A DNA stretch of 64,000 nucleotides from Acetobacter indonesiensis (GTDB taxonomy: Bacteria; Pseudomonadota; Alphaproteobacteria; Acetobacterales; Acetobacteraceae): NCBI RefSeq assembly GCF_000963945.1, contig NZ_BAMW01000021.1, positions 1 to 64,000 on the forward strand, written 5' to 3'. This document shows, one piece after another, positions 19,816-45,211 of this stretch (the first letter of the stretch is position 1; each line of letters begins with the position of its first letter). Position numbers and translations under genes: made by a program. The notes under the pieces are model-generated. The model was not told where the DNA came from. It saw nothing but the letters and a program-made list of their open reading frames with translations, and made no database searches.

Positions 19816-20670
19816 CTACGGAATCGATTTGATTTTATTTTTATAACGGTCTTGTAATTTTTTATGAAAAAGAGGCGGCTCTTGAGGTTGCTGGGCCGCC
19901 ATCGCTTCTACGCGTGCTCCCGCCTGCGCCAGCATCTGCGGGATAAGCTGTGTTTCAGGAAGATTTTTCCAGTATTTTCGCGGCATTTCAGACCGCATTG
20001 CTTTGGTTTTGATACGTGCCGGATTAAAGATGGACACATAATATGTCTGCCACAGCAAATCGACATCATCAGTGACATCAGGTTTGTCGCAGGGGTTTCT
20101 GCTGATGGCACATTGCTGCCCATTCCATGCAATCGAACCCTTAGGTGTCAGAATAACCCAGTCCATATCGGTAAAACGCCGCGTGAAAAAAGGGGCAACG
20201 GTCTGTAAAATATAATGGTCTGGTTCAAACCACGCCAAAAACTGACGCCTCCCTCCGCTCCCCTCACCTTGTTCACGAAACCGCAAAAACGCTTCCATTT
20301 TATGGGCATCCCGGCGCACCTGATGCATCATGCGGAGGGCTCGGGCGATGTCAGGGTCAACCGGAATAGAAGCCAAAGCCGGTTCAGCCTGCGCGCGCCA
20401 TAAAATACGATAGGCAAGATCAAACCGTCCCTGATCGGAATGGCGCAAAACGGACTTCAATAGCGCCAAACAGGTATTCCGTAGCACCGGCTGCGCCGCG
20501 TCTTCTTTGGGTTCAGGCCCTTTCAAGGGGGCATCAAACAGACTCACTTCAGCCTTTGTACTGCGCCACTCAATATTTTCGGGAGCCAACCCAGCCAGAA
20601 AACATTGACGCGCAAGAACCCGCCATTCCTGAAAATTGGTGTTGTCCGGTAATGTAAAACCGTAAACCAT
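19816..20670 (-). CDS. DUF4130 protein, partner of radical-SAM DNA-linked enzyme (TIGR03915 type)
   Basis: 284 aa with the DUF4130 pattern: an Arg-rich middle, FLAWFEPDHYILQTVAPFF and TRRFTDMDWVILTPKG. This family is named only by association with a radical-SAM protein and, elsewhere, with the uracil-DNA glycosylase-like UdgX, to which it can be fused. No glycosylase domain is fused here. ATG 20670 lies 2 nt after the radical-SAM stop; a longer frame from 20754 would overlap that gene and is unlikely. It is probably co-transcribed with the radical-SAM gene and under the same LexA site. Biochemical role unknown. Confidence 0.88.
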   Translation of the reverse strand: MVYGFTLPDNTNFQEWRVLARQCFLAGLAPENIEWRSTKAEVSLFDAPLKGPEPKEDAAQPVLRNTCLALLKSVLRHSDQGRFDLAYRILWRAQAEPALASIPVDPDIARALRMMHQVRRDAHKMEAFLRFREQGEGSGGRRQFLAWFEPDHYILQTVAPFFTRRFTDMDWVILTPKGSIAWNGQQCAISRNPCDKPDVTDDVDLLWQTYYVSIFNPARIKTKAMRSEMPRKYWKNLPETQLIPQMLAQAGARVEAMAAQQPQEPPLFHKKLQDRYKNKIKSIP

Positions 20671-20672
20671 CC

Positions 20673-21902
20673 CTAGAACAGTGTAAGTTGCTGCGGCTGA
20701 GGCAGGAAAAGCTGCCGAATATTCTGCTGGTCTGCCAATTGAACAGGTGACCATCCAACAGCATGCAGAAACGGTTTTACCTTCCGTAAGGAGACATTCA
20801 GTTTTGCCAGATCTTCCAACCGCAAACGCCTATGCCGACGGGCCGTTACAATGGCATTGACGGACCGCACACCCAGCCCCGGCACACGTAAGAGCATTTC
20901 CCGGCTGGCACGGTTCAGATCAACAGGAAACTGCTCTCTGTTTGCCAAAGCCCAAGCCAGTTTAGGGTCTAGGGCAAGGTCAAGCATGCCATCGGGGCTG
21001 GCTGCGGTAATTTCAGAAAACTGAAACCCATAGAAGCGGAATAACCAATCAGCCTGATATAAACGGTGCTCCCGTAGCAGAGGGGGGGCTTTGACTGGCA
21101 AAATAGCCGATGCATCAGGGATAGGACTGAACGCGGAATAATAGACCCGGCGCAGGCGGTATCCAGTGTAAAGAGAAGAACTGCTTGATAAAATGTCCCG
21201 ATCTGTTGCGGTATCGGCCCCTACAATCATTTGCGTGCTTTGACCGCCCGGAGCAAAGCGAGGAGCAGCCCGACCAGCCAATGTGCGGTCTTTGCCGGCG
21301 TCAATACGAGTACGCATCTCACCCATGGCATGACGGATTTCTGATGCCTGTTTTTGCGGGGCATAGTCTGCAAGCCCACGTTCCGTTGGCATCTCCACAT
21401 TGATAGACAACCGGTCTGCATACAGCCCGGCTTCTGCCAGAAGCCCCGGCGATGCATTGGGGATGGTCTTCAGGTGAATATACCCACGGAAATTATGCAC
21501 TTCACGCAGTTCTCGGGCCACACGCACCATTTGGGCCATAGTATCATCGGACGAGCGGATGATGCCCGATGACAGGAACAAGCCTTCAATATAATTGCGC
21601 CGATAAAATTCTAACGTCAGCCAGATGACTTCATCTGCCGTAAAGCGTGCTCTCTGCACATTGGATGAAGACCGGTTGATGCAATAAGCGCAATCATAAA
21701 TACAAAAATTGGTCAGCAGAATTTTCAGGAGGGAAATGCAGCGCCCATCGGGCGTGTAAGCATGGCAAATGCCATTGCCGGTAGAGCCCAGGCCTTTTGT
21801 GGCCGCAGAATCCCGCTTACCCGCCCCGCTTGATGAGCATGAGGCATCGTATTTTGCGGCATCTGATAAAATGGCCAACCGGTCTGAAAGGCTGCTCTTC
21901 AT
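20673..21902 (-). CDS. radical-SAM protein linked to DNA repair/modification (TIGR03916 type)
   Basis: 409 aa. The cluster-binding CxxxCxxC is at Cys67-Cys71-Cys74 (CIYDCAYC), and the N-terminal AKYDASCSSSG matches the family that pairs with DUF4130. The C-terminus has a helix-hairpin-helix DNA-binding motif (LLRVPGLGVRSVNAIV), so it probably acts on DNA. The start at ATG 21902 is supported by family N-termini but has no Shine-Dalgarno. A LexA box ends 4 nt upstream and overlaps the likely -10, so the mRNA may be leaderless. The reaction is uncharacterised. Confidence 0.9.
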   Translation of the reverse strand: MKSSLSDRLAILSDAAKYDASCSSSGAGKRDSAATKGLGSTGNGICHAYTPDGRCISLLKILLTNFCIYDCAYCINRSSSNVQRARFTADEVIWLTLEFYRRNYIEGLFLSSGIIRSSDDTMAQMVRVARELREVHNFRGYIHLKTIPNASPGLLAEAGLYADRLSINVEMPTERGLADYAPQKQASEIRHAMGEMRTRIDAGKDRTLAGRAAPRFAPGGQSTQMIVGADTATDRDILSSSSSLYTGYRLRRVYYSAFSPIPDASAILPVKAPPLLREHRLYQADWLFRFYGFQFSEITAASPDGMLDLALDPKLAWALANREQFPVDLNRASREMLLRVPGLGVRSVNAIVTARRHRRLRLEDLAKLNVSLRKVKPFLHAVGWSPVQLADQQNIRQLFLPQPQQLTLF

Positions 21903-21939
21903 AGTTGTTCATGTTATGTTCTCTTTCTAGCCTGTGCAA
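21903..21939 (-). promoter_or_regulatory. LexA-controlled promoter of the radical-SAM/DUF4130 operon
   Basis: GTTC-N7-GTTC on the plus strand (21907-21921), read as GAACATAACATGAAC toward the gene: a perfect alphaproteobacterial LexA box. A -35 TTGCAC (21939-21934), a 17-nt spacer and a -10 TAACAT (21916-21911) place the -10 inside the operator, a direct repression layout. The predicted transcription start is within about 1-3 nt of the ATG at 21902. Confidence 0.75.
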
Positions 21940-22007
21940 GCCTTATCTTTATCTCGTCACGTGTACCGTTGTGCTTCCCTCCTCCTATCAGAGGGAAGCA
22001 CTCACTC

Positions 22008-23435
22008 TCAGCCAGCGTAGACCGGGCCTTCAGGCAGCAGTTTACCGGGGTTGAGAATATTGTGCGGGTCCAACGTCGCCTTTAATGCTCGCATGACACT
22101 CAACGCCCCCTCACCATGTTCGGCTGCCAGAAACTCCAGCTTGCCAAGACCCACACCATGTTCACCACTGCAAGAGCCGCCGAGTGCCAAGGCCCGTGCT
22201 ACAATCTTGCGGTCAAGATCAAGGGCTTGCTGATAGCCTTGGTCGGTCTCTTCCGTAACAATAATGGTATGAAAATTACCATCACCCACATGGCCGAGAA
22301 TGGCTGCATAGAGACCCGACTTCTGAATATCGTCCTTCACACCCGAAATAAGCGCTGTCAGTTGAGAAATGGGGACGATGCAATCGGTACTAATCAACCG
22401 CATGCCCGGATGCTGTGCTTTAATGGCCCAAAAAGCGTTATGTCTGGCCTTCCAAAGACGGGCCCGTTCATCCGCACTATCGGCCCACGCAAACCCTAGA
22501 CCTATGTTATCAAGGGCCAGCGTTTCCGTGACAGCAATTTGTTCTTTCACGGCTTCTGGCGATCCTGAAAATTCGAAAAACAGGGTCGTCAGAGCACGAT
22601 ATTCGTTAAGGTCAGAATAGCGGATGCAGGCATCCATCTGCACATCATCCAGCAATTCAACGCGTGCAATCGGAATACCCATTTGGATAATTTCAACGGC
22701 CGTATTAACGGCGTCGTCCAGATTTTCGAATTGACAGACGGCAGCGGAAAGCTGTTCCGGCTGACCATGCAACCGTAGTTGTACCTCTGTAATAATACCC
22801 AGCGTGCCTTCAGACCCCACAAACAGAGACGTCAGATCATAACCGGTCGACGACTTCCGGACACGCCCACCCGTCTGAATAATTTCTCCGTTCGCCAGCA
22901 CGACTGTCAAACCGAGAACATTTTCCTTGATGGTCCCATATTTCACCGCGGCAGTGCCGGATGCGCGCGTTGCACACATGCCCCCTAATGTCGCCTCTCC
23001 ACCCGGATCAACTGGGAAAAAGAGGCCAGTATCACGAAGAAAAGCATTAAGAGACTGTCGGGTTACGCCAGCCTGCACACGGCAATCCAAATCGGCCTGA
23101 TTGACCTCCAGCACACGCGCCATCCGCGAAAGGTCGAGACTTATTCCCCCATCAGGCGGAGTGACATGCCCTTCAACAGATGTACCGGCCCCAAACGCAA
23201 CCACAGGAACACGATGCTCGTGGCACAAACGCAGCGTTGCGGACACATCTTCCGAAGTTTCAGCAAAAACGACCCCGACCGGCATATTGGCTACCGGAAG
23301 CGCTTCACCATGGCTATGCGCATCACAGACGGACGCATTTGTGGAAATTTTGTCGCCAAGTTGCACACGCAAAGCCGATAAAACAGCATTGGCGCGTGCC
23401 GTGGCATGAAGAGGGAGTGAAGCAGTCTCCGACAT
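22008..23435 (-). CDS. FAD-linked oxidase, D-lactate dehydrogenase / GlcD type
   Basis: 475-aa flavoprotein of the VAO family that oxidises a 2-hydroxy acid, most likely D-lactate or glycolate, feeding electrons to a quinone or cytochrome. The FAD-binding half has VVAFGAGTSVEGH, PVDPGGEATLGGM and TGYDLTSLFVGSEGTLGIITE; the C-terminal half has GHVGDGNFH and CSGEHGVGLGK, which carry the substrate and metal ligands. No membrane segment. Sequence alone does not separate lactate from glycolate. Confidence 0.88.
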   Translation of the reverse strand: MSETASLPLHATARANAVLSALRVQLGDKISTNASVCDAHSHGEALPVANMPVGVVFAETSEDVSATLRLCHEHRVPVVAFGAGTSVEGHVTPPDGGISLDLSRMARVLEVNQADLDCRVQAGVTRQSLNAFLRDTGLFFPVDPGGEATLGGMCATRASGTAAVKYGTIKENVLGLTVVLANGEIIQTGGRVRKSSTGYDLTSLFVGSEGTLGIITEVQLRLHGQPEQLSAAVCQFENLDDAVNTAVEIIQMGIPIARVELLDDVQMDACIRYSDLNEYRALTTLFFEFSGSPEAVKEQIAVTETLALDNIGLGFAWADSADERARLWKARHNAFWAIKAQHPGMRLISTDCIVPISQLTALISGVKDDIQKSGLYAAILGHVGDGNFHTIIVTEETDQGYQQALDLDRKIVARALALGGSCSGEHGVGLGKLEFLAAEHGEGALSVMRALKATLDPHNILNPGKLLPEGPVYAG

Positions 23436-44376: not shown

Positions 44377-44405
44377 TTGTGTTCTTGTTTTGTTCTTGGT
44401 ATTGC
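44377..44405 (+). promoter_or_regulatory. LexA-controlled promoter of imuA
   Basis: GTTC-TTGTTTT-GTTC (44381-44395) is a perfect alphaproteobacterial LexA box. TTGTGT (44377-44382), 17-nt spacer, TATTGC (44400-44405) gives a promoter with the box in the spacer. The predicted start is near 44412 and GGGAG (44418-44422) lies 6 nt before ATG 44429. Confidence 0.7.
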
Positions 44406-44428: not shown

Positions 44429-45211
44429 ATGACCTCGCCTCACTCCGATACCGTTGCTCTTCTGCGTGAGAGACTGATACGCATGGAGCAGTGTGGAAAC
44501 GTCGTTAGTAATTTTATTCCGACGGGTCAGTCCTCTATCGACCACTATCTGACTGGCGGACTGGAGCGAGGTGCTGTGCACGAATTTTATGGTGCCGCCA
44601 GTAACCGAATGACTCTGGCAAAACCCTCCCGCTTTGTTGCGTCCGCTTTGGCAAACATTGCCGGGCCTGTTCTATGGGTGGGAGAAGAGTATCTTGATGT
44701 ATCCGTTGCCGGTATTCGCGACACAGCCCTAAATCCCGGCAGATTACTCTGCGTCACGGCGGCCAAAAATGCCTTACAGGGGTTATGCGAAGAAATATTA
44801 CATGAGGCGGGCATCGCAGCCCTTATCATTGATATGCGTGCGCCCCCATCCCCGGCAGAATCAAATCGTCTTTACCGTGCTGCCAAATCTAGTGGGGTAA
44901 CCGTTTTCCTGTTGTTACCGCAGTCGGCGTTGGGCTCTCCTCTTATCGGGACATCAAGCACAACACAGTGGCACATTGGGACACATTCCCCTGCTTCGAC
45001 ACATCCTGCATCCGGCGGGGTTCGGTCGCTTTTGAACGATCAACGATGGAATGTGGAACTCCTCTCCTATCAAGGACAACCTGGCAGATCTTGGGCTATT
45101 GATCCTTCACTTTTTGGGGTTACAGGAAGTGCCACTATAAACAACGAGAAATCGCCCAAAAATCGTAGCCGCTGGCATCCTTCTCGGTGGATTGAGGCTG
45201 CTTCCGCTTGA
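44429..45211 (+). CDS. imuA: ImuA-type SOS translesion-synthesis accessory protein
   Basis: 260 aa, related to RecA-like ImuA, which works with ImuB and DnaE2 in error-prone repair. The N-terminal FIPTGQSSIDHYLTGGLERGAVHEFYG and later WVGEEYLD match the family; the Walker A is degenerate, as usual in ImuA. ATG 44429 is set by a good Shine-Dalgarno. A LexA box precedes it. imuB and dnaE2, normally in one operon, do not follow: a TonB receptor begins 240 nt after the stop. They may be elsewhere or lost. Confidence 0.83.
   Translation: MTSPHSDTVALLRERLIRMEQCGNVVSNFIPTGQSSIDHYLTGGLERGAVHEFYGAASNRMTLAKPSRFVASALANIAGPVLWVGEEYLDVSVAGIRDTALNPGRLLCVTAAKNALQGLCEEILHEAGIAALIIDMRAPPSPAESNRLYRAAKSSGVTVFLLLPQSALGSPLIGTSSTTQWHIGTHSPASTHPASGGVRSLLNDQRWNVELLSYQGQPGRSWAIDPSLFGVTGSATINNEKSPKNRSRWHPSRWIEAASA

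Follow-up and report, generated by a model that had tools for sequence, protein, structure and literature searches.

The position of a perfect LexA box almost at the start codon of an uncharacterised radical-SAM (rSAM) gene raises the question of whether this gene, together with the DUF4130 gene behind it, is controlled by LexA and what the two products act upon. The locus was studied within a window of 64,000 nucleotides of Acetobacter indonesiensis (contig NZ_BAMW01000021.1, positions 1 to 64,000) and compared with rSAM loci of the genus, the family, named alphaproteobacterial relatives and a sample of the phylum.

Organization of the locus

The rSAM gene (20673-21902, minus strand) encodes a protein of 409 amino acids with a CxxxCxxC motif, which matches TIGR03916 (rSAM_link_UDG) at 566.7 bits (cut-off 343.5) and the Pfam family Radical_SAM (PF04055) at 32.6 bits, also over the cut-off. 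The adjacent DUF4130 frame on the same strand is open from 20754; its likely start, the ATG at 20670, follows the rSAM stop codon at a distance of 2 nt, and therefore the two genes look like one operon. The second protein (19816-20670) matches TIGR03915 at 199.2 bits (cut-off 112.25) and DUF4130 at 130.2 bits, and profile searches of 19816-20754 found no UDG domain in it.

An exact GTTC-N7-GTTC match, GTTCATGTTATGTTC, occupies positions 21907-21921 in plus-strand reading, corresponding to GAAC-N7-GAAC on the strand of the genes. The motif is given as the alphaproteobacterial LexA consensus in an excerpt of PMC8565304, and sequence, coordinates and consensus were all as originally predicted. 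Along the minus strand, the putative -35 hexamer TTGCAC (21934-21939) is followed after 17 nt by the putative -10 hexamer TAACAT (21911-21916) within GAACATAACATGAAC, then by AACT and the ATG (21902-21900). Hence, 4 nt separate the LexA box from the rSAM start codon, and no Shine-Dalgarno-like string occurs in the sequence ahead of it; both features had been claimed and can be read directly. The proposed promoter held up in its positions and spacing but not in its strength, as the hexamers are weak for a stand-alone promoter (TTGCAC agrees with TTGACA at 3/6 positions, TAACAT with TATAAT at 4/6) and a promoter scan of 21850-22060 reported no promoter.

Positions 21971-22001, between the gene of an FAD oxidase (whose stop codon is at 22008) and the LexA box, form a perfect inverted repeat of 11 bp on each side of a 9-nt loop, possibly the end signal of the FAD-oxidase gene; the scan reported no T run at the repeat.

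Frequency of the motif and other boxes in the genome

The motif alone proves nothing. Two perfect boxes occur in the window against 1.64 expected, and the whole genome holds 83 against 74 for a reversed control pattern, so that GTTC-N7-GTTC is not enriched genome-wide; many of the boxes fall within open frames, as chance occurrence would predict. At this density some 0.002 copies are expected in a given 100 nt. As the motif by itself is not rare, its evidential weight rests on position and conservation. When the boxes were ranked by a model of the spacer, built from 70 rSAM boxes of named loci that belong neither to Acetobacter nor to Gluconobacter, the rSAM box came first among the genome's 83.

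In this genome lexA (TIGR00498, 187.3 bits) has its own box upstream, and recA (579.8 bits) and the gene of DNA polymerase IV (449.1 bits) are each located behind one. Further boxes stand upstream of genes whose matches are below the respective cut-offs, namely a recN-type gene truncated where its stretch ends (355.8 bits), a divergent pair of an ImuA-like gene (66.7 bits) and a gene of a UvrD/PcrA-type helicase (309 bits, partial), and the gene of a UmuD-like protein (52.2 bits, partial). The second perfect box in the window (44381-44395) is followed 33 nt later by an open frame on the plus strand (44429-45211), whose product resembles a RecA/ImuA-type protein; it reaches 19.1 bits with the ImuA model, far below the cut-off, and has no Pfam match.

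Conservation of the box in Alphaproteobacteria

The box, whose absence from close relatives with the gene would contradict the original prediction, is present in them. Within the genus, an rSAM gene over the cut-off occurs in 24 of 49 genomes, and in all 24 a perfect box lies within 300 nt ahead of the anchor motif (one locus, L290, was judged on 87 nt). In the family, 111 of 299 genomes carry the gene over the cut-off, and a perfect box was found at 88 of 110 loci, the count leaving aside G146, whose gene is at a contig end. Control searches at these 110 loci gave 0-3 matches for spacings of 4-6 and 8-12, two for the reversed motif and one for a window 600-900 nt upstream. The perfect box further precedes the rSAM gene at 80/80 named alphaproteobacterial loci, the top 80 out of at least 587 relatives, the nearest rSAM protein among these 80 being that of Acetobacter malorum (89% identity). 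It is also present at 53/53 alphaproteobacterial loci of the class sample other than the own genome and a family member already counted. Sub-cut-off rSAM matches were left out of the genus, family and phylum-sample counts.

The 22 family loci lacking a perfect box include all four of genus g18 and five of seven of genus g4 (L169 and L198 being among these five), and several of the 22 show imperfect boxes by eye. The g18 loci (L170, L171, L173 and L174) have no GTTC-N7-GTTC, and a palindrome, GAACAAACGTTC, is present just before the ATG, which we take to resemble a Gram-positive LexA site. A change of the LexA motif in g18 was considered and dropped, since lexA keeps GTTC-N7-GTTC in three of the four genomes; in the fourth, which is 73% complete, lexA was not found. 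The g18 rSAM genes may have lost LexA control.

Replacement of the operator outside Alphaproteobacteria

In the phylum sample, 84 of 398 genomes were over the rSAM cut-off, comprising the own genome, the one counted family member, 53 other Alphaproteobacteria and 29 Proteobacteria of other classes. The alphaproteobacterial box occurs at the rSAM gene in 53/53 of the former but in 0/29 of the latter. Conversely, the E. coli-type site CTG[TC]-N8-[AG]CAG was found at 0/53 alphaproteobacterial and 19/29 non-alphaproteobacterial loci, and the looser CTG-N10-CAG at 5/53 and 24/29, respectively, leaving five of the 29 loci where the latter was not found. As E. coli-type sites take the place of the alphaproteobacterial box, the operator tracks the LexA motif of the lineage, which we regard as the strongest evidence in the case.

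The lexA gene itself was inspected in 13 non-alphaproteobacterial genomes, 11 of which were over the lexA cut-off. CTG-N10-CAG was present at lexA in eight, and all eight carry one at rSAM as well. Another genome, G384, has the motif at rSAM and none at lexA, and in G412, G432, G639 and G695 it was found at neither gene (the lexA matches of G412 and G695 are below the cut-off). Three rSAM loci of genus g227 (L372, L384 and L395) show no recognisable LexA site; in the two of these three genomes looked at, lexA is accompanied by TTAGTAGTAATACTACTAA rather than an E. coli-type box.

Distance to the start codon and mRNA leader

Leader statistics were restricted to boxes read as GAAC-N7-GAAC (24 genus, 76 named, 39 class and 78 family loci). 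In the genus, the start codon lies 2-5 nt after the box at 22 of 24 loci and 15 nt after it at the other two, and none of the 24 has a Shine-Dalgarno-like string. A hexamer with at most two mismatches to TTGACA occurs 16-18 nt from the central hexamer at 14/24 genus loci, compared to 8% at shifted positions. This set of 14 does not include the TTGCAC of the window, which has three mismatches. Starts within 7 nt of the box were found at 70/76 named loci (Shine-Dalgarno-like strings at 4/76) and at 31/39 loci of the class sample (6/39). In the family they drop to 28/78, with Shine-Dalgarno-like strings at 19/78 and distances often of 13-50 nt. The close arrangement of box and start codon is common, not universal, and it is not general in the family.

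For Gluconobacter oxydans, the part of PMC5756330 consulted reports 62 leaderless mRNAs, 5% of 1344 assigned starts, with a weak -10 motif, which makes the idea of a leaderless message reasonable here. The leaderless mRNA originally called probable is judged on spacing: the short distance, the missing Shine-Dalgarno sequence and the 22/24 genus loci agree with it, whereas the family figures do not extend it beyond the genus, where an mRNA with no leader, or hardly any, is plausible.

Features of the two proteins

The cysteines of the CxxxCxxC motif (C67, C71 and C74) are invariant in 41 rSAM sequences. A putative C-terminal helix-hairpin-helix reaches 21.8 bits with PF12836, which is under the gathering score of 27. 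Of the NCBIfam models searched, which may or may not include one of spore photoproduct lyase (SPL), only TIGR03916 gave a match. The predicted model (pLDDT 75) shows a radical-SAM barrel comparable to lipoyl synthase (8tsk_A; Z 13.9, rmsd 4.0, 217 residues aligned). Sequence searches against solved structures gave no match for the rSAM protein at E 0.01 and two chance-level matches for the DUF4130 protein (E <1), and a PADLOC search found no family.

For the predicted DUF4130 model (pLDDT 82), Foldseek returned no match at an E-value of 0.001 or less. Among the 50 matches listed by a second structural comparison, most are DHH-type proteins such as RecJ, Cdc45 and family II pyrophosphatase. The best match reached Z 6.6 (rmsd 4.8, 172 aligned), and values of Z <8 may mean a common arrangement, so that a RecJ/DHH-like fold of DUF4130 may be taken as a weak lead. 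A D-H-H/Y triplet is located at positions 179-181; the part of the protein that holds it was matched to the second, DHHA, half. The triplet was not counted as a catalytic motif because of this placement and because only H180 is invariant.

Association with UdgX

Where DUF4130 was found downstream of rSAM, a UDG half follows it at 64/72 named and 85/95 family loci, and neither DUF4130 nor a UDG half was seen at 7/79 named loci (L116, without the anchor motif, is not in this tally) and 15/110 family loci, some of these stretches being cut. The three such fusions scanned (from L084, L089 and L119) exceed the cut-offs of TIGR03914 (UdgX) and TIGR03915 alike. Of the 24 genomes of the genus in which rSAM is present, four have a UDG match next to it and ten have one over the cut-off elsewhere; the remaining ten have only TIGR03914 matches of <100 bits, and UdgX therefore looks optional to the rSAM-DUF4130 pair.

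A separate protein of the same genome as the window, L286 (G000:C175:102238-102810), has a strong UdgX domain match (288.1 bits) and a DUF4130 part below the cut-off (21.6 bits). Proteins of this type were found in many congeners, with or without the rSAM gene. A tie between such a separate protein and the loss of the UDG half was considered and found unsupported: 31 of 49 genus genomes have TIGR03914 over the cut-off, and 20 of these 31 are without rSAM over its cut-off.

Discussion

The original prediction had placed an uncharacterised enzyme pair in the SOS response, and this is supported by a box that is kept in relatives and by boxes at lexA and recA of the same genome. Judged from these sequence comparisons, LexA control of the rSAM-DUF4130 operon is very likely. 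As one account, it is highly probable that a working LexA operator represses the operon, that DNA damage induces it, and that its products act on a damaged DNA base. We infer that LexA bound to GTTC-N7-GTTC would cover the -10 region, 4 nt from the start codon, and so block RNA polymerase. Upon DNA damage, RecA filaments would stimulate LexA to cleave itself and the operon would be transcribed, in the genus probably as a leaderless mRNA or one with a leader of few nt. The rSAM enzyme with its helix-hairpin-helix-like tail and the DUF4130 partner would then most likely act jointly on a damaged or altered DNA base.

A chance occurrence of the box, with the gene outside LexA control, would fit the 83 genome copies against 74 of the reversed pattern and the window count at expectation. 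However, chance is hardly credible when the box recurs in the same place at 24/24, 80/80 and 53/53 loci with controls near zero, and when another LexA motif takes over in other classes. A greater, though still minor, probability applies to the reading that LexA control is real but a promoter further upstream gives the mRNA an ordinary leader, LexA being a roadblock over the start codon. The weak -35 and -10 hexamers, the lack of a promoter in the scan and the family loci with 13-50 nt between box and start and Shine-Dalgarno-like strings (19/78) would be in line with such a roadblock, whereas the genus loci (starts 2-5 nt past the box at 22/24, no Shine-Dalgarno-like string at any of the 24, a TTGACA-like hexamer at 16-18 nt in 14/24 against 8%) argue against it.

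With respect to function, the operon might instead serve uracil-DNA repair, the UdgX domain doing the work and rSAM-DUF4130 being accessory. The frequent UDG half with DUF4130 (64/72 named and 85/95 family loci), the three fusions over both the TIGR03914 and TIGR03915 cut-offs and the label of a putative UDG-based base excision repair system, used for a related operon in the text seen of PMC8565304, all speak for it. We nevertheless consider it unlikely, as a UDG domain is lacking in the window protein and 10/24 rSAM genus genomes have TIGR03914 matches of <100 bits only, yet the genome does have a UdgX protein elsewhere.

A damage-related role of the pair can hardly be questioned, given that its LexA site is present at 53/53 alphaproteobacterial loci of one sample and, in other proteobacterial classes, differs along with the LexA motif. 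It leads directly to the question of which lesion rSAM-DUF4130 acts on, and genus genomes that have the pair and no strong UdgX match allow it to be studied alone. A more far-reaching and rather doubtful version would have rSAM-DUF4130 as a core SOS enzyme, with an operator rebuilt as the LexA motif changes and UdgX dispensable; a RecJ/Cdc45-like DUF4130 protein would keep damaged DNA in place while radical-SAM chemistry acts on a base so far not counted among SOS lesions, and the message would be leaderless in the genus.

Comparison with known systems

We take COG4277 to correspond to TIGR03916. The accessible passages of PMC8565304 describe SOS control of a COG1573-COG4277 operon (UDG plus helix-hairpin-helix/rSAM) in Bacteroidetes, which they label a putative UDG-based base excision repair system, and cite the same control in Verrucomicrobia (Erill 2016) and Alphaproteobacteria (da Rocha 2008, Caulobacter). 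If the operon type is the same, the SOS link is already known in kind for these three groups; new here are the motif-switch test, the size and sharpness of the comparison, the missing UdgX half and the RecJ/DHH-like lead for DUF4130. In the Caulobacter passages searched the rSAM gene is not named, and literature searches on UdgX together with radical SAM and under the TIGR family names found nothing related. Elsewhere, in the respective excerpts, an Acinetobacter gene bearing the name of the TIGR03916 family rises under desiccation (PMC13130816), and a Streptomyces LexA list includes one radical-SAM protein (PMC9380542).

The DUF4130-UdgX fusions (TIGR03915 plus TIGR03914) share gene position and DUF4130 half with the window protein, which differs in being without the UdgX half. 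The part of PMC3765255 consulted predicts DUF4130 to be a mutagenesis-related enzyme and connects it with SplB-like rSAM and UDG proteins. The SplB-like photolyases of that source resemble the present system in radical SAM chemistry, SOS neighbourhood and, according to a figure legend, the DUF4130 link; in contrast, the NCBIfam match of the window protein is TIGR03916 only. The Bacteroidetes operon, as far as the passages of PMC8565304 go, is alike in SOS control, in the rSAM gene (if COG4277 equals TIGR03916) and in having a UDG-linked partner, but it is preceded by other LexA motifs, whereas in A. indonesiensis the partner is without a UDG half and the LexA box touches the start codon.
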